Source: Chloroherpetonaceae bacterium (lineage in GTDB: Bacteria > Bacteroidota > Chlorobiia > Chlorobiales > Chloroherpetonaceae). Taken from it: a DNA stretch of 64,000 nucleotides. A model generated the notes under the pieces. It saw only the letters and a list, made by a program, of their open reading frames with translations, was not told the DNA's origin and did not search any database. Where the stretch lies: contig JANQGG010000063.1 of the NCBI GenBank assembly GCA_028277445.1, positions 62,001-126,000 of the forward strand. Direction: 5' to 3'. The position numbers were made by a program, and so were the translations under genes. This document shows positions 2,225 to 46,068 of this stretch, piece after piece; positions within the stretch are counted from its first letter, which is position 1, and each line of letters starts with the position of its first letter.

Positions 2225-2512
2225 ATGAAAACTGAAGAGATTGAATGCAAAATCAGAGACTTAAAACCGGTTTTATCAAAAAAGTTTCATGTTGATAAAA
2301 TTGGTTATTTTGGTTCTTATGCCAGAAACGAACAAACGCTAACATCTGATATTGATATTTTGGTTTCATTTAGGAAACCTCTGGGTTGGTCTTTTTTTGA
2401 TCTGCAAGACTTGTTGGAACAAGAATTAAATATAAATGTCGATCTGATTTCAATAAATGCTCTTAAAGATCAATTAAAACAAGATATCCTTCGTGAAGTG
2501 AAATATATATGA
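2225..2512 (+). CDS. mntA: MntA-type minimal nucleotidyltransferase (antitoxin)
   Basis: A 95-residue minimal nucleotidyltransferase with the family signature GS (30-31) followed by a D-I-D (42-44) metal-binding pair. In characterised HEPN/MNT modules this enzyme adds AMP groups to the HEPN partner and so neutralises it. The ATG at 2225 is preferred; an in-frame TTG lies one codon upstream. The stop codon overlaps the ATG of the next gene by 4 bp, the coupling expected for this two-gene system. Function is inferred from family and neighbour. Confidence 0.85.
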   Translation: MKTEEIECKIRDLKPVLSKKFHVDKIGYFGSYARNEQTLTSDIDILVSFRKPLGWSFFDLQDLLEQELNINVDLISINALKDQLKQDILREVKYI

Positions 2513-2865
2513 CACCCAAGTCAAGGAAATATAGATTTTACTTAGAAGATATGTGCCTTTCTATGGAAAGAATTCAAACTTATATTGAAAACCTGGATTT
2601 TTCCGAATTCAAACATCAAATGATCGTGATTGATGCCGTTGTAAGAAATTTTGAAATCATTGGAGAAGCGGCAAAACACATCCCAGAGCATATTGTCAAT
2701 AAATATCCAGAGATTCCCTGGAAAAAAATGTACCGATTAAGAAATATCATCATTCATGAATATTTCGGACTTGATCTTGAAATGATATGGGAAATAGCCA
2801 ATCACGATTTACCCCAAAACCTTCGTGATTTAAGAAAATTGATGATACAAGAAGAGTTACCTTAA
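2509..2865 (+). CDS. hepT: HepT-type HEPN ribonuclease toxin (DUF86)
   Basis: A 118-residue helical HEPN protein of the DUF86 family. The toxin signature R-x4-H-x-Y is intact (R78, H83, Y85). Known HepT toxins use R and H for RNA cleavage, and the tyrosine is the target of AMP addition by MntA. The gene overlaps the upstream MntA-type gene by 4 bp and no other gene follows on this strand. Both members look complete, so the module is probably active or was recently. Confidence 0.87.
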   Translation: MTPKSRKYRFYLEDMCLSMERIQTYIENLDFSEFKHQMIVIDAVVRNFEIIGEAAKHIPEHIVNKYPEIPWKKMYRLRNIIIHEYFGLDLEMIWEIANHDLPQNLRDLRKLMIQEELP

Positions 2866-5493: not shown

Positions 5494-6072
5494 TCACATC
5501 ACAAAACACATCTTGATATTCATTCTAAACTCTTTTAATACGGATGATAAAAGTTCACCTTGCTTTTCAAGATGTTGATTTAAATAAAATTTACCGTCTT
5601 TTAAGAAATAAACATCTACAGCTTCCAAATCCGGATCAACGATCCAATATTCCTTGACGCCATACGTTTCATAAATGACTTTCTTTTTATTTCGGTCGTT
5701 ATCTTGTGAAGAAGGTGAAAGGATTTCGATTAACAAATCCGGTGAGCCTTGCACATTATCCTCAGTAATGATTTCTAAGTTGTCATTAGAAATAAAAATA
5801 ATATCGGGCTCAACCACATTATCCTGACTTAATATCACATCGTATGGGGCGCCAAAAACTTTTCCAATTTTATTCTTCTTAAGAAATAAAAAGATTTCAA
5901 CAAGAAGATTACGACTAACAACTTGATGTTTGGTTTTCGGGGAAGGGGTCATCTGTAATTCTCCTTCTAATATTTCATAACGATTGCCATCATTAGGCAA
6001 TAAGGTGTATTCCCAATAGGTGAGGTCACGTTTTTTAGAGAGATAATCAACAACAGGTTCCAGGATTGCCAT
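5494..6072 (-). CDS. Uma2 family protein (DUF820, PD-(D/E)XK nuclease fold)
   Basis: A 192-residue member of the Uma2/DUF820 family. The order is typical: 'YEILEGEL', 'H...V' helix, 'VEPDIIFI', 'PDLLIEILSPSS', then 'KKVIYETYGVKEYWIVDP'. The acidic and lysine residues in 'EPD', 'IEILS' and 'KK..YE' fit a PD-(D/E)XK active site. Family members are very numerous in cyanobacteria and some Bacteroidota and Chloroflexota, and no member has a settled function. The gene stands alone. Confidence 0.85.
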   Translation of the reverse strand: MAILEPVVDYLSKKRDLTYWEYTLLPNDGNRYEILEGELQMTPSPKTKHQVVSRNLLVEIFLFLKKNKIGKVFGAPYDVILSQDNVVEPDIIFISNDNLEIITEDNVQGSPDLLIEILSPSSQDNDRNKKKVIYETYGVKEYWIVDPDLEAVDVYFLKDGKFYLNQHLEKQGELLSSVLKEFRMNIKMCFVM

Positions 6073-10254: not shown

Positions 10255-10533
10255 AAGAGCGTCTTTGAAGTCTTTGAGTTTATAAAACCGATAACGTTGA
10301 ATGCTTTCCGATAGCTTTAAACCGTAAGATAACTATAGGGTATAGAAGCATTCACCATGATGGGGTTGAATATAGGGTATTTTAATGCTCTAACGAGAGG
10401 TCTTTGTATTAACGAATGGTTAAATTATTGGGTTGTAATACCGTCACCGACGCCGTACTTGATGATGTCCAGGTTTGGCAGAGCCGTTCCCTCGATAGTG
10501 TTTATCCGATTGTCTATTTCGACTGTATTGATT
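10255..10533. other. Junction region between cluster and inserted block; orphan short coding tail
   Basis: A gap of 279 bp. On the minus strand, just after the HD/ATPase gene and overlapping its end in another frame, about 38 codons stay open down to a TAA at 10425-10427. The predicted tail reads [17 protein letters not shown] and then VGDGITTQ, which looks protein-like, but no ATG, GTG or TTG precedes it. The plus strand has a 10-bp direct repeat TATAGGGTAT (10334-10343 and 10371-10380). No convincing attC site was found, although an RYYYAAC-like ATTTAAC and a GTTAGAG lie about 35 bp apart on the minus strand. Confidence 0.4.
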
Positions 10534-13239
10534 TCAATTTTTAGTTTTTAGGTCGGTATGTTGGAGAATTATTCTTTCTAGAGATGCAAGTGCATCAGAA
10601 ACATCAAGGCAGAGTAGTTTTATGTAAGCCTTTGCGATCTCCTTGAGCTCAGGCCCAACTTTCAGGGATTCATCTTGAAGTCTCGCAATGACTTTAACGA
10701 CATCATTGTGTAGCAGATTTATGTACCTTTTACCTCCCATTGCGAATAAACACCTTACATTTAAATCCGACTTGCAGCAAGAGATGTTGTTTTCAAAACC
10801 TAATGAACGAATGAACTCACCTGCTTTTATGATGTCTGAATCCTGCGAGTACCGAGCCTCCTCATCCACATATTTCGGCTCGTAGGGGACTACTTCATAT
10901 CCGTGCATTTTCCAATACTGATCGTAGATATCTCGCCGTATGAACTGCTTATCGTAGAGTTCTTCACTAGTATTAGAACCAATCTGGTATGTTGTAAAAC
11001 ACAACTCCTCATTGCGCTTAAGGAGTTCACCCATAGCACGAACTAGGCGAGGTAAAATACCGACCCAATATCCTTCGATCTCAACGCGTGCAACGAAGTC
11101 ATAGTAGTGCCGATGCTCGATAAGGTGATACACTTTTGTTTTACCTTTTCCTGTCCATCTTTCGCGTAAATCGCCGAGAGACACCTCTTGAAAGTCTTCA
11201 TCCAGTACGTGAATATGTGATTCGAATTCAGCGAAATACTGTTTACAATCATCCTTGTTAGCACAACTATTGAACTGGCGATTGAGTTGGTAGATCAACG
11301 GTTGTTCGTATTCACCGTAGTTAGTGTTAATATTAATTGGGTAACTTAGAAGGACTTTTTTGAGCAAATCGCTAAAAAGTCTATTCAAGTTTTGTTTTAG
11401 GGTAGAATATTTCGAGTCTAGCTTCACATCACTTCGGCTAGCTGTCAGCTCAATGACCCCTGCTGGCAAATTCACTTCGCCACGATAGCCAACAAAGTTT
11501 TCAGGAATAAGATCTAGCCGCTCGGCCACGAAAACACCTTCCTGGCACAAAAACATGCGGTTCTCTGACTCCCCTGGAAAATAACCTATCACTCCTTCGA
11601 AACCGTGCTCTTTGTAAGTCAGTTTGAGTCGATGAGCCGATGATGCCTCTGCACCCAAGAAAGGGCTTGAAACAGCGTCAACTTTATGCGCGGCCTTACT
11701 TTCATCGCTCCAATGAGGTATTTCGCCATTTTTCGTACGCTTTTCATAACTGATAGAAACTTGTGTATGACGACAGTATTTTTTCACGGCTTCTGGTATT
11801 AAAACATCTCGCCCCTGGCTATTCAAATAGATAATCACACTAGTGCCAGCATCAAGCAAGAGGCTAGATTGCTGACCTTCCAGTCGGTCAACCTGAACCT
11901 GCTGCCTTTCGAATTCAGCATATTCACCGCTGTAGTCCGGGAATTCAATGCGAAGCGGGGAAAAGTTGTGTTTATGAGTCTCTACAACAATCCTATTGGC
12001 AAGACGTAGATTGGCCAGGAATCCAATCCCAAACTTGGCGATCAGTGAGTCATTCGTGGATTCAAGAAGCTCTTGAACGCGTTTCGACTGGGCAATACCA
12101 GTGCCAATTTGAAGGAAAAAGTTCTCTACATCTGTTTGATCCATGCCGATACCGTTATCACACACTTTTACAGCAATAGGCTTTGAGTTTCCCTCTACTT
12201 GCTCATCGTAGTACAAAACCACTTTTATATTCGGCTCATAATGAATATGGTCTTTTTGCAAAACCCTGGTTCTAATCTTGCATGCGTCAAGGGAGTTCTG
12301 TATAAGCTCACGTACAAACACGTCGCGTGATTGGTATATGTGTTCACACAGAAGAGCACTGATCTCGGGAGTGGGCACATCAATGGTCTTCCATTTTGGA
12401 ATGGTCTCAATGAAATTTCGCTCGACTCTATCATGAATCTGCCACCCATTTTTTGCGAAAATAACCTTGGTTAATTCGAGTTCTTCGTCAATAGAGTCAG
12501 CAAGACTATTGAGACGACTTAGATCATCTTCGCCCTTATACGATGCTTGAAGAGTGATTGGATGCACACCAATGTCTTTAGGTGCGATGCCTTCCACGTT
12601 CAGATGAGTTTCCCAATAACTCTTGCTTACTGGATTGAAAACATAACGGTCAAAAACATACTGCGGAGTTCGGTCCGATGTGACGTGACAAATGTCACAG
12701 AGGCGTAGAATCGAAGAAAGAAGCTTCAGCCGAACACTTGGCTTTGTACCAAGGGAGTGTTCGTCTCGAAGACTGGAAAACTCTGAACGATTTAGACAAT
12801 GGCTCCGACATATTATTGCTAACGCCCTTCGAATGCTTGGGTCGTTTGTGAAGCTAAAGATCTTAGACTCGATACGGTTGAAGATTCTCTTGTGATGATC
12901 CTTTCTGACATCCTCAATCGACTGCTTGTCATGGTCTGGAACCATACCTCCGTCATGAAGCCATAGTGCTAAAACCAGAAGATGAAGCTCGTCCCATGAG
13001 AGGGCTTTTAATACAGTAGCCGGCACTAGAATGGAAGCTAACTCTTCGAGCTTAAGCGAGTGTGTAAAATCATGGCTTGAGTAAGGAAGCTGTATTACAT
13101 TCTTCAGGTAGGTCTCGATTTCTTCACGGATCGATCCGTACAGCTTGTCAGTATCAGTCGTTCCAGAGGGCAGGTCGACTGCCACCCGTTTAGCTTTCTC
13201 CTTTTCAGCCAGGCACTTCCGAAGGTGTGATTCTACCAT
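10534..13239 (-). CDS. HD-domain plus Hsp90-like ATPase protein (candidate conflict/defence protein)
   Basis: A 901-residue fusion. Residues about 30-200 form an HD-type metal-dependent phosphohydrolase module: H56 in HDFTHS, H95-D96 in WLHDGG, HH115-116, H147 and D182. Residues about 290-530 form a GHKL/Hsp90-type ATPase: N-box ELIQNSLDA (311-319), G1 DNGIGM (361-366), G2 KFGIGFLA (402-409). The remaining 370 residues match nothing I know. HD domains cleave phosphoesters or nucleotides; Hsp90-like ATPases couple ATP-driven clamping to partner activity. Such fusions are known from bacterial conflict systems, so antiphage activity is plausible but inferred. The gene seems richer in G+C than its neighbours and starts about 60 bp after an integron-like GTTAGAC core site, suggesting horizontal gain. 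Confidence 0.8.
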
Positions 13240-13295
13240 TGTATACCTCTTACGGATTCTGTTATAACAAATTTCAAAGGCTCACGACATTCAGC

Positions 13296-13307: not shown

Positions 13308-13514
13308 TTAGATAGTTTCTATATAATACCCCTTATTATTTATTCTAAAGATCGTCGATAGGACTCTTGAGCCCTTACCACCCCGGTTCAAAACATGGGC
13401 GTAAATCATAGTAATATTAACATCATCTTGCTCGAGCAAATGACTAACAAAAGTGTATCTGAGAGTATGAAAACCTGTTATAGGGATTGTGGTTAATATT
13501 GGGGTTTCGCTCAT
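13308..13514 (-). pseudogene. Decayed integron-integrase-like tyrosine recombinase, C-terminal fragment 1
   Basis: A 68-codon open frame. It contains GFHTLRYTFVSHLLE followed directly by TMIYAHVLNRGGKG. Integron integrases have the same two blocks (HTLRHSFATHLLE and TTMIYTHVLNRGG) but with about 15 residues between them that include the catalytic GH. Here the H-x2-R motif and the nucleophile Tyr remain while the GH segment is deleted in frame, and the whole N-terminal half is missing. The fragment cannot be an active recombinase. It lies on the same strand as the HD/ATPase gene, next to an attC-like site and a GTTAGAC core. Confidence 0.75.
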
Positions 13515-13580
13515 GTTTTTTGAGTTCGGGTTTAAACTCTGTAAAAAAACCTAACACGTAATTTTAACAAAAATATGTTT

Positions 13581-13723: not shown

Positions 13724-14107
13724 TCACACTCTAATTATATTGCCATTATATTTTGCCACTATAGAATCACATGTAACCAAATGCAATGGCTCAACATTGC
13801 TTTGGGCAATCAACATGCGATCAAATGGGTCTCTATGGTGCTCTTCCAAATCAACAAGCTTGATCACGTGATCCGGTTTTACATGCAAAATCTCAAAACC
13901 GCTTTGTTTAATCACCTGAATTAAATCATGAACATTTACTTTAATATCAAGTTTTCCAATAGATAGCTTGATAATAATTTCCCAAATATTAACCGTACTC
14001 GCATAAACTTCATCGGCTGATAAAACCAATTGGCGCGCTTTATCAGGTAAATTATTGCTTTCTTCCAGTGCCCATAGCAGAATATGTGTATCCAGTAATA
14101 TTCTCAC
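13724..14107 (-). CDS. PIN-domain toxin, VapC type
   Basis: A 127-residue PIN-domain ribonuclease of VapC type. The acidic active-site residues are present: D6 in LLDTHILLW, E in NIWEIIIK (about 43), D in HHRDPFDRMLIAQ (about 93-96), and a D in 'VTCDSI'. VapC toxins cut tRNA or rRNA. The gene overlaps the upstream antitoxin by 4 bp (ATGA). Together they form a compact unit followed by an attC-like site, the usual form of a toxin-antitoxin cassette in chromosomal integrons. Confidence 0.9.
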   Translation of the reverse strand: MRILLDTHILLWALEESNNLPDKARQLVLSADEVYASTVNIWEIIIKLSIGKLDIKVNVHDLIQVIKQSGFEILHVKPDHVIKLVDLEEHHRDPFDRMLIAQSNVEPLHLVTCDSIVAKYNGNIIRV

Positions 14108-14346
14108 AGGCTTCGTCCATAAAAATCATCGATTATTTTTTGCGGCAAAGGGGCATCAAAATCCTGGCTGATATTGATCTTTCCCTTTAACATTCCCAAT
14201 TTTATCTTTTTTTTGCCGCTATCTATAGGAACCAATTTCATTTTAGGTTTACCTGCTTTTGCCACAATAATTTCTTCACCGGCTGCAACCTCTTCAGCAA
14301 TGCGAGATAAATTTGTTTTTGCTTCATGCATATTTATCAATCTCAT
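14104..14346 (-). CDS. Phd/YefM-family antitoxin
   Basis: An 80-residue Phd/YefM-type antitoxin. The N-terminal DNA-binding part reads MHEAKTNLSRIAEEV, then GEEIIVAKAGKP, the two signatures of the family. The acidic C-terminal tail with FDAPLPQKIIDDFYG is the part that usually wraps the PIN toxin. It probably represses its own promoter in the AT-rich stretch just upstream. It is translationally coupled to the PIN toxin gene. Confidence 0.9.
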   Translation of the reverse strand: MRLINMHEAKTNLSRIAEEVAAGEEIIVAKAGKPKMKLVPIDSGKKKIKLGMLKGKINISQDFDAPLPQKIIDDFYGRSL

Positions 14347-14547: not shown

Positions 14548-15525
14548 CTAATCACTTTGGCAATGTTTTCGACGAGTTTTGTCTTCGTACATCTCTTTGT
14601 CCGCAACATCAAAAGCGTATTTCAGTCCACGTTTAGAATCACGGCGTGCCCAACCGATTGATGCTTTCACGGATGCTTTACTGAGGTTCAGCTTAATTCT
14701 TTGTAGTAAAGGAGACGGGTCAATAGCTATTGTTCCTTCAACAAGTAATCCGAACTCGTCCCCACCCAAACGCGCCACCACATCATTCGGACGACCTGCA
14801 TTCTTCAGCGCCTGAGCTGCTGATAGGATATATGTATCACCCGCCGAGTGTCCTTGCGTGTCGTTGATCTGTTTCAAACCATCTAAGTCGACCACAATTA
14901 TGGCGGCCGGCTCGCCCAACGTTCGGCACTTCGTTTCCTGCTGTTCTAAGAGTGTGTCCCACGCATGACGGTTCAAGAGGCATGTCAACTTGTCGTGGAA
15001 GGCAACATCTTCCAGTTTGGCAATCCTGTCTTTCAATTCGGTCGACTTTAGTTCATCGTTAAGAGCAAGGGAGAGGTACTTGGCTAGAATCACGAATAAC
15101 GCCTCATCAGCTTGGATTTCCTCAGGTTTCGGCTCAGGATCTATCGCGCACAACGTTCCGAATAATGAACCATCTCCTGCAACTAACGGAAAACCAACAT
15201 AAGACTTGATCTGAAACGCTTGACGAATTGGCGTCCTTGCGTACGAGTCTACAAGATCAGATTGGGGTGCGATATGGGGACCTTTGTCGCGGATCATTTG
15301 ATAGCAGAAGCTATCGCTCCAACGAAATACTTCGCCATCGTTAACACCGTATGTCTTGTCATTTGCTTTGAGAACTATCCAATCGTCCTGTATGGTTCGA
15401 GTTATCATCCACAGTCCGAATCCGTATTTCTGGCGAAGGAATGCCAGTGTTTCAGCCGCTGCTTCCTCAAAATTTCGAAAAGACTGGTAATTGGGCAGCG
15501 ATGGGTACAAAGAAGTGTTTTCCAT
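14548..15525 (-). CDS. GAF-GGDEF diguanylate cyclase
   Basis: 325 residues. A GAF sensor domain (about 20-155, with 'SYVGFPLVAGDGSLFGTLCAIDP' features) is joined by a short coiled coil to a GGDEF domain (about 170-320). The active-site loop is ARLGGDEFGLL with the metal-binding Asp in VVDLDGLK, so cyclic di-GMP synthesis is expected. The domain ends early (GWARRDSKRG, then KEMYEDK). No RxxD inhibitory site was seen. Codon use looks more GC-rich than that of the neighbouring sugar genes. The gene stands alone between an integrase remnant and a degenerate attC-like repeat, so it may be a captured cassette. Confidence 0.88.
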   Translation of the reverse strand: MENTSLYPSLPNYQSFRNFEEAAAETLAFLRQKYGFGLWMITRTIQDDWIVLKANDKTYGVNDGEVFRWSDSFCYQMIRDKGPHIAPQSDLVDSYARTPIRQAFQIKSYVGFPLVAGDGSLFGTLCAIDPEPKPEEIQADEALFVILAKYLSLALNDELKSTELKDRIAKLEDVAFHDKLTCLLNRHAWDTLLEQQETKCRTLGEPAAIIVVDLDGLKQINDTQGHSAGDTYILSAAQALKNAGRPNDVVARLGGDEFGLLVEGTIAIDPSPLLQRIKLNLSKASVKASIGWARRDSKRGLKYAFDVADKEMYEDKTRRKHCQSD

Positions 15526-15972
15526 TTGTCATATCCCCCTGAGTTACTCTTTTAATTGTAACTTTCTCTGTTCGCTAGTATAACTCGTGACGGTAATGGC
15601 TCGATTCTGGCATTGGTTTAGGGTGATCCACCTAAATCATCTATTCCATATCAACAGTGTTTTTTTAAAACCGTACCCGCTTTTTCTTAAAACATGTTCA
15701 TAAATCATCGATGTGCTTACGTGTTTATGACCATCAATTCCTGAAGGATTCGAATATGATTACAAGCCTTATAATGCTTCTGTTTTGAATCAGAAACTTT
15801 AAGAAATAAGTTGTCTGTTAAACGATTTTATGAGATCTAAGGACATTTTGGAGGCGCATATATAGTTTTTCTGAGTCAGGGTTAAAACTTCGTCAAAACA
15901 TAATGCTTTATTATACTAATTTTTTTTCTCCACAAAAAAAGCGTTATCTAAAGAGCGTTTTAAGCGGAAAAG
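15526..15972. other. Noncoding stretch with integrase debris
   Basis: A 447-bp gap. The block 15662-15776 is integrase-derived and is listed separately. The block 15865-15900 resembles 13515-13547, which lies just upstream of the other integrase fragment: both read GTTTTT, then GAG or GAGTC, then GGGTTTAAA or GGGTTAAAA, then C-rich to A-rich sequence. The rest, 15526-15660, shows nothing I recognise apart from a possible GTTATAC core on the minus strand. Confidence 0.45.
15662..15776 (-). pseudogene. Decayed integron-integrase-like fragment 2 (frameshifted)
   Basis: Translating the minus strand gives IRILQEL, then after a one-base frameshift GHKHVSTSMIYEHVLRKSG. This matches the integron-integrase C-terminus (IRTVQELLGHxxVSTTMIYTHVLNRGG), including the catalytic GH and Tyr. 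It is too short and frameshifted to act. The segment it covers overlaps and complements the piece deleted from fragment 1 at 13.3 kb, so there were once at least two integrase copies or one duplicated copy. Confidence 0.7.
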
Positions 15973-39198: not shown

Positions 39199-39279
39199 TT
39201 TCATGGTTGTTCTGTATTATACTATGAACAAGTATAGATAATGTAAGACCGAACTCGACACCGATAATATTTGAAGCTT

Positions 39280-42200
39280 ATGTCAAATCCTGATTTATCT
39301 CAGAAACAAAATGTTAGTCAAGGAAAAAGCTCTCAATTTTTTGGGAATTTTCTTGACAAATCCGAAACGTGGGGCGCTGATAATCAAGATGCTCATGAAT
39401 TTGGTCTGTACTTTATCAAGCTCTTTTTAATTGATCTTGCTGATCGGCTCAAAGAATTGCGTCGAAATAAAACAACACGCACCACCCAAAACATCATTGA
39501 GTTTTTAACCAGGCTTTCGGTTGATGAAAACCCTGTTGAAACTTTAACCGTTTTGAACATTCATGAATTAAATGAGTTTCAAACGTTTATTGAAAACACG
39601 CAAAACAACCTTGAAAAAGAGTTTCAACAGGATCATGTGCCTCATGCCTATCAAGTTTTAACTGAAAACTTGGAAACCACTGCCGAGTATGTCAATAACA
39701 TTTTTTTGAGCATTGAAAAGAATCCTACGGATATTGAGACTATAAACAAATTTATATCTACAAATTTGTTTGATACGGTTAAAACGGATATCGAACAGCA
39801 AGCATCAACTCAGGATAATGTTTGGCACCAGCCTGTTGATCCTGAAACTGAAATACCTCACGAATCGATCGGCAACATTCCCAAACAATTTTCATCACCG
39901 GTTGCGGATTTCGGGTTTGAACTCTCATCATTATTTTCTAATGGGGAAACTGCTCAAACGACTTCTTCCCTGGTGCTTACGCCAAAGGATAAATCAACTC
40001 CGAAAATCGTTTCGGATCAAGAGCCTGCAGCTGATTCAAAAACTGAGGATTTACCTACCAATATCTTATCGTTATCAAAAGCGCAGGAAATTTTCAAAAC
40101 CATCGGTGCGAAAGCTACAAAAGAGTCAAAATCCGATAGAATTATTGATTTCTTTAAAACCCTTTCAAACTCTTCCGATTATTTAAACGATCTTGGTCGT
40201 TTTTATTCAATACCTGAGTTTCCGGGATTTCTTGAATTCATAACCATGATCGATCAACAGGAATCCTATGAAATTTCTTCAAAAGAACTTGATGAGATAT
40301 CCGATCATATCATTAAGATTTTAGAAAACGCGTTATCCGATCCAAACATTACTGAGAATATTGATAATTATATTCATTCCGGCGAGTTGGAGGACTTCAG
40401 CCAATTAGACCAATCTGATTTTGACAAATCATTACCTGATCTTTCCGATTCGGTTTTGGAACCCGATAACATTGAAGCGCTTTCCGAAGATGCTTTAAAA
40501 GAATTCACCTCAGAATTGGAAGATAGTACAACGGTTTCCAAACCGGAGACCGCACCGGAAAAACCAAAGCATTCAGAAATTGATGATATTAGTTTCTCTA
40601 ACTATGCCAAAGGTATTTTATTAAAAGTATCAAGCGACCTTCCGGATACTGATTCAGGGAAACTTGCCGAAACAGCGCTTTCCAATTTAATTAACCGATC
40701 AGAAATTATTGATGCGCTTGTTGTTACCGGGTTGCCCGGATTATCCGATTTTGGGCAGTTCATTCAAAACGCATTAATCAATCGAAACAAACTTGATGAT
40801 ATCACAAACTACTCTAATGATATTATCATAGAAATTCGCAAAAAATTGTTGGCTCATTTTGATGAAGGTGGCCAGTTGGATTTGGAAGATACGGCTGTTG
40901 AAAGTGATTTTGAAAAAGATGTCAGAAAACAAGCTGCTGAAGAAACAGAGAAAAGCATTCAGAATTATGAATCTTATGTATTTACAATTTTAGATCAGGT
41001 AAAAATTCAACTGCAAGAGAATTCTGAACTTGTCTCTTATTTAAATGACATCTCTATAAAAGCGCATATTTTAGATACTTTATTGGCGTCTGATATTGTT
41101 TGTTTGAAAAATTTTGCTCAATTCACCAAAGATGCCATAACTAATGGTATATCTGTTGATGAATTAACGTCCAATGCCGATCAGATCATTTCAACGTTGG
41201 TTGCCGAGTTACAATCATCTGATAACATCTTATCAACCCCAGAAACAGAAGAATTTGATAAAGCCGTTGATTCTTTAAAAGAAAACTTGGAAGAACCCGA
41301 AGCCATAGAATTACCAAGTTTAACCGATTTTGACTTTGATAACGAAGATTTGCCTTTTGAAACACCCGCACAACAAGAAAAATCTATAGACGTTTCACAA
41401 GCTGAAGGCGATAGGGTTGAGGCTGATTATGTCCAAACCTTCGCCAGTTCCCTTCTTAAAGAATTACAGCAACTGGTTAAAGAAAACAATAACGCTGTTG
41501 AATACATCCGGCAAATGATTAATTCAACGGATATCATAGAACAACTGCAAAATTCCACATTAACCAGTTTCAAAGAATTTTCGGCGTTCCTTAATCATGC
41601 GATAACATCTTCACTATCTATTTCTGAGCTTGAATCAAATAAATCCGATATTCTCAACGTCTTATTTGATGATATTAACTCTAAAGCCGATCAGCTTGAA
41701 GTTGAGCCACCGGCTCAAACTCATACAGAAACCGCAGACTCCAACAAGCAATTGCCCTCAGCATCCATTGATGACAGTTTCTCTCTGGGTGATCTTTTTA
41801 TAGACCAAGCTGGCGATTCTGATCAAGATTTGCCCGCTAAAACAGATGCAAACTCCGCCTCATCTGAAATTGATGCGTCTTTAGCAAGCGAAAAACTTTC
41901 TGATGATGTTTTCAGCAACGAATCCTTGCCATCTGAAGAAGCGTTGGGTGAACCGGAAGAGAAATCTCAAACTCAAGACGTCTTAGATTCAAGTTCTGAA
42001 ACTCTGGATGATCTTCAGCTGCCCGATGGATTCATTATTTCTGAAGAGCCAAATGAAACGGATGCTCCTACCCTTCCTGATGATCCAGGGCTGACGGATT
42101 TTCTAAATACAGACAATGACTCCGAGCAATTACTCGACGATTCCGACACGTTACTAGAGCTTGATTCTGATCTCGTAGTAGATGAAGACGATAAGAAATC

Positions 42201-45200
42201 CCCGGAAACACCTGTTCCCGATACGGAAAATATTAGTCAGGATTTTTTTAACGAAGATATGTCTTTGCTCTCTGATCACGACTATTTTGATAATATGCCT
42301 GAAGTTTCGGATATAACTCCTGAAACGCAAGCTTCAGAAACGACAAAAGAAGAGCCATTGGCAGATCAATCCCGTGATGAGACATCCGATACAATATCTT
42401 CCGAGCCTTCTTCTATTGAAGAATTACCAACTGAAGATTTAACATTAGATGATACCATCAGTTTGGATGATTCCGAGTCAGAACTACTTGAGCCTGAAAT
42501 AACAAATCCTCAAGATGATTTATCATCAATTAATACCGATGAAAGCTTACCTGAAAATCAAGATCAGTCTGAGTCATCTGAAGTTGATGATTTGTTCGTA
42601 AAAGAACCTGCATCCGATATACACGCTGAAACGGATGAACTTGTCGGGTTTGATAGTAGCGATTTGATTTTGGATGATTCTCAGTTGGTTGTAGAAGAAT
42701 CTGACAAAGAACACGCGGAATCATTAGATTTTAATGAGTCCCTGGAAAATTTTGATGACGATCTGGATCTATCATTATCAGATACCATCTATAACCCCGA
42801 TGAATTGAGCGATAGCCAAGCAAAACCAACCGATGATGATTTAACGTTGCCGGAATCACCGCAGGTCGAAGAATTGGATTCAATTCAAGAAAGTATTGTT
42901 GATGATAATGCCGATAGCGATTCAGAGTCAAACACTCAGGATATAGAGTCCCTGAATGAATCTCTTGATGATTCTCTGAATGATGCTCTTGATAACTTAT
43001 CCGATGGTTCTGAACGTGAAGACGAGCCAAAACATGAAGGAATTGAAACGTCCGAATCTTCACAAGACATCGTGCAACCCGAAACGCTATTGACGCTTGA
43101 CGATACTTTTCTGAATTCAGATGATCTTATCCTGGATGATAGCCCGGAAATTATCTCTGAACAACCCACAGAGTCTTTAGCAGCAGAAGAAAGTCACCAA
43201 GAAACAGATTCATTCCAACCCGATGAAATCCAACAAGTATTCCTTGAAGAAGCTAATGAATACATAGAAAAACTTAATGCCGATCTCTTAGAGCTTGATA
43301 AGGTTGCCGATTCAGTTCAACCCGAACTGGTTAATAAAGTCCTGCGCGGCTCTCACACCATTAAGGGTTCTGCTGCAATGGTTCAACTTAAAAACATTAG
43401 TGATCTTGCCCATAAAATGGAAGACTCACTGCAAGTTGTTCGTGATAAAAACTTACCGATCCCGCATGTATTAATTGATCGCTTGTTCCAATCGGCTGAT
43501 GCGATTTCAGCAATGCTCCAACATTTCCGGCAAAGCGGTAGTGATAAAGCTGGGGATTATTCGAAGCTTACCGAAACGTTGATTTTTTATTCATCTCAGC
43601 TTCAGGAAAGCGGCCAGATCACCCAGTTTGATCTTCCATCATCAGAAAAGCCCGAGGACGATTTCGAGCTCAACGAAATCCAGCAGGTTTTCTTGGAAGA
43701 AGCTTTGGAGTATGTTGAAAAACTTAATGCAGATCTACTTGAACTGGATAAACACATCGATACCCAACAGCCCGAATTAATCAATAAAGTTTTAAGAGGC
43801 TCTCATACCATTAAGGGCTCTGCTGCAATGGTTCAACTCAGCCAACTGAGCGATTTGGCTCATAAAATGGAAGATTCGTTGCAGATTATTCGAGATAAAA
43901 ATCTTAAAGTCCCTCGTTTGTTGATCGATGTCTTATTCCAGTCTGTTGATGCAATTTCTGAAATGCTTCAAAATTTCAGACGTACCGGTAAAGATATTTA
44001 TGATACCCAAAAGCCTTTGGTAGAAACATTGTTGTTTTATCAAACACAACTGGAAGAAAAAGGTGAAATTACCGAAGAGTTTAAAGGTCAGGCTAGCGCT
44101 GCCAAATCCGAATCCACCCAGAAGACGCCGCCAAAAGCTGCTCAATCCAGTGTTGCCGAGCAAACCGTTCGTATTGATATTGCCGCGCTGAACAGTTTGG
44201 TAAACCTTTCTGCTGAACTTGTTATTGCTCGTAACCGATTGAACAACGAACTTGGCTCTGTAGAAAAACTGGCATCCAAATTTTTGAAAGAACGTCAATC
44301 ACTGAGCCAAATCAGTAAGAAAATTGGTGAAAGTGTTCAAAAAACATCAAAACCAAAAAAAGACAGCGATCAGGAAAACTCATCTGATAATAAGACGGTC
44401 ATAAGTTCCGAACTGGAAGAAAATACGGATGTTCTGGAAGAGTTTTCTGAAAGCGAATTCGACCGTTTCAGTGAGTTCGATATTATCTCTCGTGATATTA
44501 AGTCGAGTATGTTAAACTTTGAAGACTCCATTAAAGAACTCCGCGAGTTTTCTTCATTCCTCAATCAAAATATTGTAAAGGTTTCTACCATCGCAAACGA
44601 CCTTAACCGTGTTATTGTGGATATGCGTATGGTTCCGGTTAAACAGATGTTTATCCGGTTTAGCCGTTCAGTGAGAGATATTGCGAAATCAGAGAATAAA
44701 AAGATTAATTTTATTACTGAAGGCGAAGATACCAAGCTTGATAAAATGGTGATGGAAGAAGTTATTGAGCCTATGATGCATATTGTTAGAAACTCCATCG
44801 GTCACGGTATCGAATCACCCGAAAAACGTCTTGAATCGGATAAGCCTGAAGTTGGCGAAGTTACCCTGCGCGCTTATCAAAAAGGCAACCGCGTCATCTT
44901 GGAAGTTGATGATGATGGCGCAGGCATTTCGATTGACAAAGTCAAGAAGAAGGCGTTGGAAAAACACCTCATCACGGAATCGGAAGCTGAAAAAATGACG
45001 CCTGAAGAAGCTTCGGCCATTATCTTCAAACCCGGATTTAGCACTGCTGAGCAAATTACATCGCTACATGGTCGCGGCGTTGGCCTTGATGTTGTTCATA
45101 ATACCATTCGTAAACTCAAAGGATTTGTAAATATTGATTCCAAAGAAGGCGTTGGTACGAAATTTATCATCTCATTGCCTTTAACCCTTGCTATCAGTGA

Positions 45201-46068
45201 TGCGTTACTGGTTGAAGCTGAAGGATTTAAATATGCCATTCCTCTGGATATGGTCTTTGAAACGGTCAACTTCCCTTCCGAATACATCGAATATATTGAT
45301 GACAAACGCTTTATTGAAATTCGCGGCGAGCAATTTGAACTGGTATACTTAAATGATTTGCTTGGATACGAATCCGATGTTTTGCATTTCAAAGCAACAC
45401 TGCCGGTTGCCGTTATTGAGCTGGAAAATAAAAAAGTAGCTGTTGGCGTTGAAAAACTTTTTGGCAAAGAAGAAATTGTTGTAAAAGCTTTAGGCTCACA
45501 TTTAAGAAATGTTAGAGGCGTCATTGGCGCTACAATTCGCGGCGATGGGCAGGTTATTTTGATTTTGGACATGAATTATTTGCTTAGTCCCGAAGAGGAA
45601 AAAGGTAAAGACCTTTACGTGACGATTGAAAAGCCGGATACGGATGTTTTGGAATCCCAGGAGCCAAAGCTTCCCGAACGCACAAAACGAAAACGTAAAT
45701 CCGAAAAAATCTGTGTGTTGGCAGCTGATGATTCACCCAGCGTTCGAAAATATATTCAATCTATTTTACAACAACACGATATTGAAGTCATTAGCGTTGA
45801 TGATGGGCTTAACGCCTTGAATAAACTACCAACTTCGAAATGCGATATTATTATCACCGATCTTGAAATGCCAAGAATGAATGGTTTTGAGCTTGTATCG
45901 GAAGTAAGAAAAATGCCTCAATACAACGACCTGCCGATTGTTATCGTAACGGCTCGTGCCGGTGATAAGCATCGCAGAAAAGGTATTGAACTAGGCGCTA
46001 ATGCATTTATCAATAAACCGTTTGATCCTTCGCAGCTAGTTGAGACTATTGAGAGTTTCGTCTCATAG
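39280..46068 (+). CDS. cheA: Giant hybrid CheA with tandem HPt domains and receiver
   Basis: A 2262-residue kinase. N-terminal region (about 1-810) with at least five divergent helical units, centred near residues 89, 305, 480, 601 and 756, each with a 'L-x-S/D-F-x2-F' type core. Then an Asp/Glu/Ser-rich linker of about 500 residues. Two HPt domains, with phospho-acceptor H1359 and H1509, spaced exactly 150 residues. A dimerisation and ATPase part (N-box 'MHIVRNSIGHGIE', 'DDDGAGI', 'HGRGVGLDVV'), a CheW-like domain, and a C-terminal receiver with phospho-acceptor in 'IIITDLEMP'. It resembles PilL/ChpA hybrid kinases of twitching and gliding systems. ATG at 39280 is used; TTG at 39271 is unlikely. 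Confidence 0.92.
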   Translation: MSNPDLSQKQNVSQGKSSQFFGNFLDKSETWGADNQDAHEFGLYFIKLFLIDLADRLKELRRNKTTRTTQNIIEFLTRLSVDENPVETLTVLNIHELNEFQTFIENTQNNLEKEFQQDHVPHAYQVLTENLETTAEYVNNIFLSIEKNPTDIETINKFISTNLFDTVKTDIEQQASTQDNVWHQPVDPETEIPHESIGNIPKQFSSPVADFGFELSSLFSNGETAQTTSSLVLTPKDKSTPKIVSDQEPAADSKTEDLPTNILSLSKAQEIFKTIGAKATKESKSDRIIDFFKTLSNSSDYLNDLGRFYSIPEFPGFLEFITMIDQQESYEISSKELDEISDHIIKILENALSDPNITENIDNYIHSGELEDFSQLDQSDFDKSLPDLSDSVLEPDNIEALSEDALKEFTSELEDSTTVSKPETAPEKPKHSEIDDISFSNYAKGILLKVSSDLPDTDSGKLAETALSNLINRSEIIDALVVTGLPGLSDFGQFIQNALINRNKLDDITNYSNDIIIEIRKKLLAHFDEGGQLDLEDTAVESDFEKDVRKQAAEETEKSIQNYESYVFTILDQVKIQLQENSELVSYLNDISIKAHILDTLLASDIVCLKNFAQFTKDAITNGISVDELTSNADQIISTLVAELQSSDNILSTPETEEFDKAVDSLKENLEEPEAIELPSLTDFDFDNEDLPFETPAQQEKSIDVSQAEGDRVEADYVQTFASSLLKELQQLVKENNNAVEYIRQMINSTDIIEQLQNSTLTSFKEFSAFLNHAITSSLSISELESNKSDILNVLFDDINSKADQLEVEPPAQTHTETADSNKQLPSASIDDSFSLGDLFIDQAGDSDQDLPAKTDANSASSEIDASLASEKLSDDVFSNESLPSEEALGEPEEKSQTQDVLDSSSETLDDLQLPDGFIISEEPNETDAPTLPDDPGLTDFLNTDNDSEQLLDDSDTLLELDSDLVVDEDDKKSPETPVPDTENISQDFFNEDMSLLSDHDYFDNMPEVSDITPETQASETTKEEPLADQSRDETSDTISSEPSSIEELPTEDLTLDDTISLDDSESELLEPEITNPQDDLSSINTDESLPENQDQSESSEVDDLFVKEPASDIHAETDELVGFDSSDLILDDSQLVVEESDKEHAESLDFNESLENFDDDLDLSLSDTIYNPDELSDSQAKPTDDDLTLPESPQVEELDSIQESIVDDNADSDSESNTQDIESLNESLDDSLNDALDNLSDGSEREDEPKHEGIETSESSQDIVQPETLLTLDDTFLNSDDLILDDSPEIISEQPTESLAAEESHQETDSFQPDEIQQVFLEEANEYIEKLNADLLELDKVADSVQPELVNKVLRGSHTIKGSAAMVQLKNISDLAHKMEDSLQVVRDKNLPIPHVLIDRLFQSADAISAMLQHFRQSGSDKAGDYSKLTETLIFYSSQLQESGQITQFDLPSSEKPEDDFELNEIQQVFLEEALEYVEKLNADLLELDKHIDTQQPELINKVLRGSHTIKGSAAMVQLSQLSDLAHKMEDSLQIIRDKNLKVPRLLIDVLFQSVDAISEMLQNFRRTGKDIYDTQKPLVETLLFYQTQLEEKGEITEEFKGQASAAKSESTQKTPPKAAQSSVAEQTVRIDIAALNSLVNLSAELVIARNRLNNELGSVEKLASKFLKERQSLSQISKKIGESVQKTSKPKKDSDQENSSDNKTVISSELEENTDVLEEFSESEFDRFSEFDIISRDIKSSMLNFEDSIKELREFSSFLNQNIVKVSTIANDLNRVIVDMRMVPVKQMFIRFSRSVRDIAKSENKKINFITEGEDTKLDKMVMEEVIEPMMHIVRNSIGHGIESPEKRLESDKPEVGEVTLRAYQKGNRVILEVDDDGAGISIDKVKKKALEKHLITESEAEKMTPEEASAIIFKPGFSTAEQITSLHGRGVGLDVVHNTIRKLKGFVNIDSKEGVGTKFIISLPLTLAISDALLVEAEGFKYAIPLDMVFETVNFPSEYIEYIDDKRFIEIRGEQFELVYLNDLLGYESDVLHFKATLPVAVIELENKKVAVGVEKLFGKEEIVVKALGSHLRNVRGVIGATIRGDGQVILILDMNYLLSPEEEKGKDLYVTIEKPDTDVLESQEPKLPERTKRKRKSEKICVLAADDSPSVRKYIQSILQQHDIEVISVDDGLNALNKLPTSKCDIIITDLEMPRMNGFELVSEVRKMPQYNDLPIVIVTARAGDKHRRKGIELGANAFINKPFDPSQLVETIESFVS

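Follow-up and report, generated by a model that had tools for sequence, protein, structure and literature searches.

An HD-CE domain fused to an Hsp90-like ATPase in a Chlorobiales genome: a candidate clamp-gated defence effector

A single gene of a Chlorobiales bacterium (phylum Bacteroidota) was found to join an HD-type phosphohydrolase domain to an Hsp90/HtpG-like ATPase. The gene, here called P0001, occupies positions 10534-13239 on the reverse strand of the window, i.e., the whole stretch of 64,000 nucleotides that was analyzed. It is one intact ORF of 901 amino acids with an ATG start and zero internal stops, recognized as a fusion by its Pfam and NCBIfam matches, and the sequence contains an AGAGG ribosome-binding site 6 nt upstream of the start codon (13246-13250, reverse strand). 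As read from the sequence, an intact HD-CE ligand set of the type H..H-HD-H-H-D precedes an ATPase domain and a middle domain that resemble those of Hsp90/HtpG and in which the ATP-binding residues, the catalytic-type glutamate E311, and the middle-domain arginine R602 are in place. The interpretation that we favor, with reservation, is that P0001 might be a clamp of the Hsp90 type that uses ATP to gate an HD phosphohydrolase of the two-metal type, with a probable role in defence.

The HD-CE domain (residues 53-255; 12475-13083, reverse strand) was assigned by the Pfam profile PF24391, which was matched over positions 4-262 of 263 with 96.7 bits (cut-off 27; E 2.5e-27), and by its invariant metal-ligand residues. 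H56, H60, H95, D96, H115, H147, and D182 were invariant in all 64 aligned HD-CE/GHKL sequences, as were G98, R179, and R190. Two additional histidines between the HD motif and the final aspartate are a sign of a two-metal centre, as in the HD domains of PgpH, HD-GYP proteins, and Cas3, and we infer that the HD domain of P0001 is a phosphohydrolase of the two-metal type. The same ligand pattern occurs in phosphodiesterases, and the matches of the HD part in a PDB profile search, all of them sub-threshold (best E 0.014), were mostly to cyclic-nucleotide phosphodiesterases. Both points would suit a role in signalling instead of defence, in which the Hsp90 part would regulate the breakdown of a second messenger under stress, e.g., the messenger of an adjacent GAF-GGDEF cyclase. 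We regard such a role as unlikely; the GYP motif of the HD-GYP phosphodiesterases is absent from the whole 901-residue sequence, and further arguments on both sides come from the gene neighbourhoods described below.

The ATPase (N) domain of the Hsp90/GHKL type spans residues 285-496 (11752-12387, reverse strand), and a HATPase_c_3 match was found by Pfam at residues 308-425 (E 2.6e-9). All GHKL motifs of the Hsp90/HtpG N-domain are present (Glu, Asn, DxGxG, and GxxGxG), including a DNGIGM motif at residues 361-366 and an FGIGF loop at residues 403-407. E311, N315, D318, D361, G363, G365, G404, and G406 were again invariant in 64 of 64 HD-CE/GHKL sequences. An earlier note, made from the letters of this DNA, had described a fusion of an HD phosphohydrolase with an Hsp90-like ATPase and had called both active sites intact. 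The fusion was confirmed by the two Pfam profiles, and nearly all of the active-site residues that were named turned out to be invariant; the exception was H116, which is retained in just 7 of the 64 homologues, and the invariant residues H60, R179, R190, and E311 had been omitted.

The similarity to HtpG extends well beyond the ATPase domain. The HtpG model of NCBIfam covered residues 285-707 with 90.5 bits (E 9e-26), which is far below the equivalog cut-off of 371, so that P0001 is not classed as an HtpG. When the sequence from residue 430 onward was used alone, the model was still matched (463-707, E 4.7e-5). In a pairwise BLAST alignment of residues 286-630 with an HtpG from Bacteroidia (90.9 bits, E 4e-23), the match spanned VFV...LIP...LTASRSD, with LTASRSDV opposite VFVTEDVKDVLPDYLVLLKGVI...LNVSRSSL. 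Tblastn against Bacteroidia genomes yielded about two dozen HtpG-sized proteins that aligned from about residue 285 to about residues 613-637, and a few HtpG matches reached residues 763-770. R602 was aligned with the arginine of the Hsp90 middle domain that contacts ATP (LNVSRE motif), and P0001 thus has, like Hsp90/HtpG, a middle domain with the arginine of the catalytic type. In a global profile test with full-length HtpGs, residues 496-901 scored against the HtpG middle and C-terminal profile with a z value of 3.6, and none of 400 shuffled sequences scored as high. For the last 206 residues alone (696-901), the z value was 1.8 and was reached by 13 of 400 shuffles. On the basis of these values, the alignments, and the NCBIfam match, the Hsp90-like middle domain (residues 497-707; 11119-11751, reverse strand) can be regarded as established from sequence, whereas a C-terminal domain is only suggested. 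The last 194 residues (708-901; 10537-11118, reverse strand) were colinear with HtpG in a MAFFT alignment and show weak hints of a possible Hsp90 C-terminal dimerization domain; the AlphaFold2 confidence was low over most of them. The HtpG matches up to residue 707 also show that the earlier description of the C-terminal 370 residues as matching no family was mostly wrong: more than half of them form the middle domain, and solely the segment of about 708-901 lacks an assignment. The notion of a unique C-terminal domain was dropped because of the tblastn alignments with HtpGs and the BLAST match to residue 630.

Structure prediction yielded a graded result. With an alignment of 74 sequences, AlphaFold2 was confident for most of residues 1-500, including most of the ATPase domain, and poor past residue 500. 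With an alignment of the Hsp90 part that comprised HtpGs and five HD-CE proteins, an Hsp90-like model was obtained in which pLDDT values of about 65-84 were reached over most of residues 549-628. The top Foldseek matches of this model were N-middle structures of TRAP1/Hsp90 (E 1e-19, about 490 columns). Because HtpGs were present in the alignment, the Hsp90-like model and its Foldseek matches are supportive, but not independent, evidence.

The combination of HD-CE and GHKL domains is common in bacteria, with at least 313 confirmed loci. The 80 loci that were retained span Bacteroidota, Bacillota, Spirochaetota, Planctomycetota, Cyanobacteriota, Actinomycetota, Pseudomonadota, Patescibacteria, and others. 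Within the Chlorobiales, 17 of 98 genomes contained an HD-CE match above the curated cut-off, the weakest of which covers only a part of the profile. The distribution is patchy over many phyla, and the architecture was also found on five predicted viral or proviral contigs. No experiment on an HD-CE protein, no characterized member, and no phage phenotype or activity of any member was found in the searchable literature; the family may already be discussed in the subscription literature. P0001 itself has remote relatives: among the matches listed, the closest were about 28-34% identical in partial alignments (about 30% at best), and a search of genome and viral contigs with peptide patterns revealed no close relative. 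A search of 395 Bacteroidota genomes with residues 480-901 yielded a match in its own genome only, and the tblastn matches to P0001 in phages and plasmids were confined to the Hsp90 part.

The C-terminal regions of 96 HD-CE/GHKL proteins fell into 14 clusters, of which P0001 forms one as a singleton. In each of the seven clusters with at least three members, an invariant arginine was found after the ATPase domain in an LNxxR-like motif. This is consistent with every member being a clamp ATPase, and we infer that the arginine may mark a middle domain of the S5 type with the same arginine as in Hsp90, in which case the whole HD-CE/GHKL family would consist of clamp ATPases. A few other HD-CE proteins, such as L143 and L154, extend into the Hsp90 middle domain to a comparable degree. 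In a tree of ATPase domains, HtpGs and the other HD-CE proteins were cleanly split (support 100/99), and P0001 was attached to the branch between the two groups (84/82). This position would agree with a specialized chaperone, in which the Hsp90 part would fold one specific client, and the fused HD domain would serve as an accessory phosphohydrolase whose substrates are nucleotides or the client's cofactor. The middle domain, which is clearer in P0001 than in most of its relatives, and the presence of the host's ordinary HtpG gene on the same contig point in the same direction. However, the branch of P0001 is long and its placement therefore unsure, and the patchy spread of the family as well as its defence-gene neighbours are unlike what is seen for a housekeeping chaperone. 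In our estimation, such a chaperone is quite improbable.

Genes for HD-CE proteins were found to be enriched beside defence genes in a neighbourhood survey. The 114 immediate neighbours matched 441 PADLOC families, versus 26 for 114 control ORFs; these counts are inflated by overlapping, cross-matching models, the control ORFs were taken at arbitrary places from Bacteroidota genomes only and were shorter on average than the neighbours, and the homologues surveyed are about 20-30% identical to P0001 and lie outside its own lineage. The leading families in the neighbourhoods were mad3, AriA, PDC-S06, LmuB, type I methylases, and specificity subunits, whereas the control families were mostly generic and neither type I restriction subunits nor PDC-S06 were present among 25 of the 26. 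At two loci, the directly adjacent gene encodes Mrr-nSTAND3 (L100) or a NACHT-like protein (L120), and a large gene recurs near ten HD-CE homologues, the scanned member of which is AAA_13/PDC-S06. With respect to the signalling alternative, GGDEF was not among the 25 commonest Pfam families of the neighbourhoods, in which defence proteins are frequent. The homologues of Chlorobiaceae occupy several loci, and their neighbours mostly differ, as do those of the homologues across bacteria. One fixed locus with housekeeping neighbours, which had been named in the earlier note as one of the observations that would refute a defence role, was thus not found. Some of the Chlorobiaceae loci have a flanking pair in common. 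At three of them (L094, L095, L097), the HD-CE gene is accompanied by two small genes of about 272 and 261 aa, which are conserved (75-93% identity from locus to locus) and may belong to one operon with it.

The neighbourhoods also contain integrases, resolvases, and conjugation genes. It is conceivable that P0001, with an unchanged mechanism, defends a mobile element itself, e.g., in competition between elements or in the exclusion of plasmids or proviruses. The five predicted proviral contigs and the mobility genes close to homologues would fit with this possibility, as would the transposase and recombinase relics on both flanks of P0001. Nevertheless, many homologues lie on large genomic contigs, adjacent to genes for restriction or other defence functions. 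Furthermore, one of the provirus calls (L179) seems to be a duplicate of a chromosomal locus (L155), with equal ORF length and match, and the provirus edges may therefore be wrong. We thus rate defence of a mobile element as rather unlikely.

The native locus of P0001 is a cluster for surface sugars that contains genes for NeuB, an aminotransferase, and, as judged by eye, transketolase halves and cytidylyltransferase-like proteins; a defence island was not recognized. The 3' end of P0001 abuts a relic of an IS256/Mutator transposase (Transposase_mut; 10437-10541, forward strand; E 6e-5, 22.5 bits, cut-off 21), which is the only part of the region with a near or distant DNA match in plasmids (78% identical nucleotides in an 81-bp match to a Methylocapsa plasmid). 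Upstream of P0001, a C-terminal relic of a tyrosine recombinase is present (HTLRYTFVSHLLEQDDVNITMIYAHVLNRGG; 13311-13550, reverse strand), which shares 45% identity (E 2e-10) with a further relic of the host genome, and a second one follows at 15640-15759 (reverse strand). Both are below the Pfam threshold. The region between them contains three genes on the reverse strand that were assigned by domain matches: a PIN-domain toxin (13724-14107), a Phd/YefM antitoxin (14104-14346), and a GAF-GGDEF diguanylate cyclase with an intact GGDEF motif (14548-15525). Scattered C-terminal fragments of tyrosine recombinases of 50-80 aa also occur on other contigs of the host genome (G000 C57, C68, C16, and C63; L206, L207, L209, and L210), and some of them resemble the relics beside P0001.

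The codon-usage distance of P0001 was 0.376 (902 codons), compared with 0.139-0.311 for 27 background genes of the window, and the PIN gene (0.400) and the GGDEF gene (0.446, the highest among the genes compared) were deviant as well. Together with the flanking transposase and recombinase relics, these values make it likely that P0001 arrived by lateral transfer. The earlier note had placed the gene in an integron-derived block beside toxin-antitoxin modules and had called it foreign by composition. The adjoining toxin-antitoxin module was verified as Phd/YefM plus PIN, and the foreign character holds for codon usage but not for the G+C content, which is similar to that of the neighbours (0.435). 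An integron origin is partly supported by the tyrosine-recombinase relics, but no attC-like site was detected near P0001 in a strict home-made scan, which carries little weight because shuffled sequences gave none either. The locus bears on two of the alternatives. A role in signalling would gain from the cyclase gene with its intact motif and deviant codon usage at a distance of 1.3 kb, but a recombinase relic and the toxin-antitoxin pair separate it from P0001. The broken transposase and recombinase fragments, together with the lack of a close relative for a comparison of selection, could also indicate that P0001 has no present function and is decaying as a passenger within a degraded mobile block. 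This seems very improbable, as 901 codons are open, all family-invariant residues of the catalytic sites are kept, and a ribosome-binding site is present.

Several further genes of the contig were recorded. The host's ordinary HtpG gene (G000:C52:55487; L079 6066-7931) is located about 17 kb from P0001, outside the window. Within the window, a 118-aa ORF (2509-2865, forward strand) is HEPN/DUF86-like by eye (RLRNIIIHEYFGLDL) and probably encodes the toxin of an MNT-HEPN pair. The region 5494-6072 (reverse strand) encodes a putative endonuclease of the Uma2 family (PF05685, E 8.5e-35). A CheA-type hybrid protein of 2265 aa (39271-46068, forward strand) has, as judged by eye, an N-terminal region of repeated, acidic segments as well as Hpt-like domains, and it ends in a receiver domain.

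The proposal of an ATP-gated clamp that is coupled to an HD hydrolase and serves phage sensing, which had also been put forward in the earlier note, is thus favored by the architecture and by the family's position beside defence genes, whereas P0001 matched none of the families of PADLOC-DB 2.0.0 at E values up to 1 and lies in a surface-polysaccharide cluster. According to this proposal, P0001 would have been acquired horizontally, together with other passengers of a block rich in relics, and would act as a single-gene effector. The protein would form a dimer, and its Hsp90 part would close on ATP as in Hsp90. The cue would most likely be a client-like protein at the middle and C-terminal region, either a phage protein or proteins misfolded upon infection. 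Its binding would alter the clamp cycle and thereby switch on the HD domain, which, being of the two-metal type, would hydrolyze phosphoester bonds, with a nucleotide, a nucleotide signal, or a nucleic acid as the substrate. The infection would be halted, at a cost to the cell. A more specific and rather doubtful version is that P0001 could be a self-contained immune receptor of the chaperone type, in which binding of a phage or infection-damaged protein as an Hsp90 client directly triggers the fused HD domain; P0001 would then be a form intermediate between true Hsp90 and the C-terminally diversified HD-CE/GHKL family. If the clamp indeed gates the HD enzyme, the logic of GHKL-gated effectors, as shown for VcSduA, would be extended to an HD phosphohydrolase, and it would be suggested that Hsp90 itself has been turned into a sensor. 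P0001 lends itself to a study of client binding as the trigger, since its middle domain is clear and Hsp90 biochemistry can be borrowed (sensitivity to geldanamycin or radicicol, mutants of the ATP site and of the arginine).

Two systems were taken as precedents for a GHKL-gated effector and for chaperone-based sensing of phages. In VcSduA of Vibrio cholerae, a Shedu protein of the GHKL type, mutations aimed at ATP hydrolysis by the GHKL domain or at the fused nuclease each abolish anti-phage activity (PMC12137116). As proposed for P0001, a GHKL ATPase is thought to control a phosphoester-cleaving domain within one protein; however, the effector of VcSduA is a PD-(D/E)xK nuclease (DUF4263) instead of an HD domain, and the order of the domains is reversed. 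P0001 is not a member of that family by sequence, and DUF4263 was absent from its Pfam matches. The second precedent is bNACHT25, which senses phage via the chaperone DnaJ (PMC12169576). The common principle is indirect, chaperone-based sensing, but in that case the chaperone is a separate host protein of the Hsp40 type and the sensor is a NACHT protein, and no homology to P0001 is claimed. Neither VcSduA nor bNACHT25 is homologous to P0001 over its full length.

With HtpG, Hsp90, and TRAP1, P0001 has the N and middle domains in common, with E311, N315, D361, and R602 aligned, and from residue 285 onward its length of 617 residues is HtpG-like (about 588-650). In contrast to these proteins, the Hsp90 part of P0001 is fused behind an HD-CE domain, and 'QNS' replaces 'SNAS' in the first motif. 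With the other HD-CE (PF24391)-HATPase_c_3 proteins, it shares the order of an HD-CE domain, a GHKL ATPase with an LREL[IL]QNS[IL]DAC-type motif, the region of the invariant LNxxR arginine, and a variable C-terminus. Unlike many of them, it does not contain a long insert between HD95-96 and H115; it is at best about 30% identical to other members, its Hsp90 middle domain is clear, and no other protein of the set shares its C-terminus. Because Pfam already lists HD-CE by name and fusions of this type are common, P0001 is not a new kind of protein. What seems to be new is the extension of the Hsp90 similarity into the middle domain, a C-terminally diversified family with a conserved clamp-type arginine, and the position of P0001 near the HtpG side of that family.
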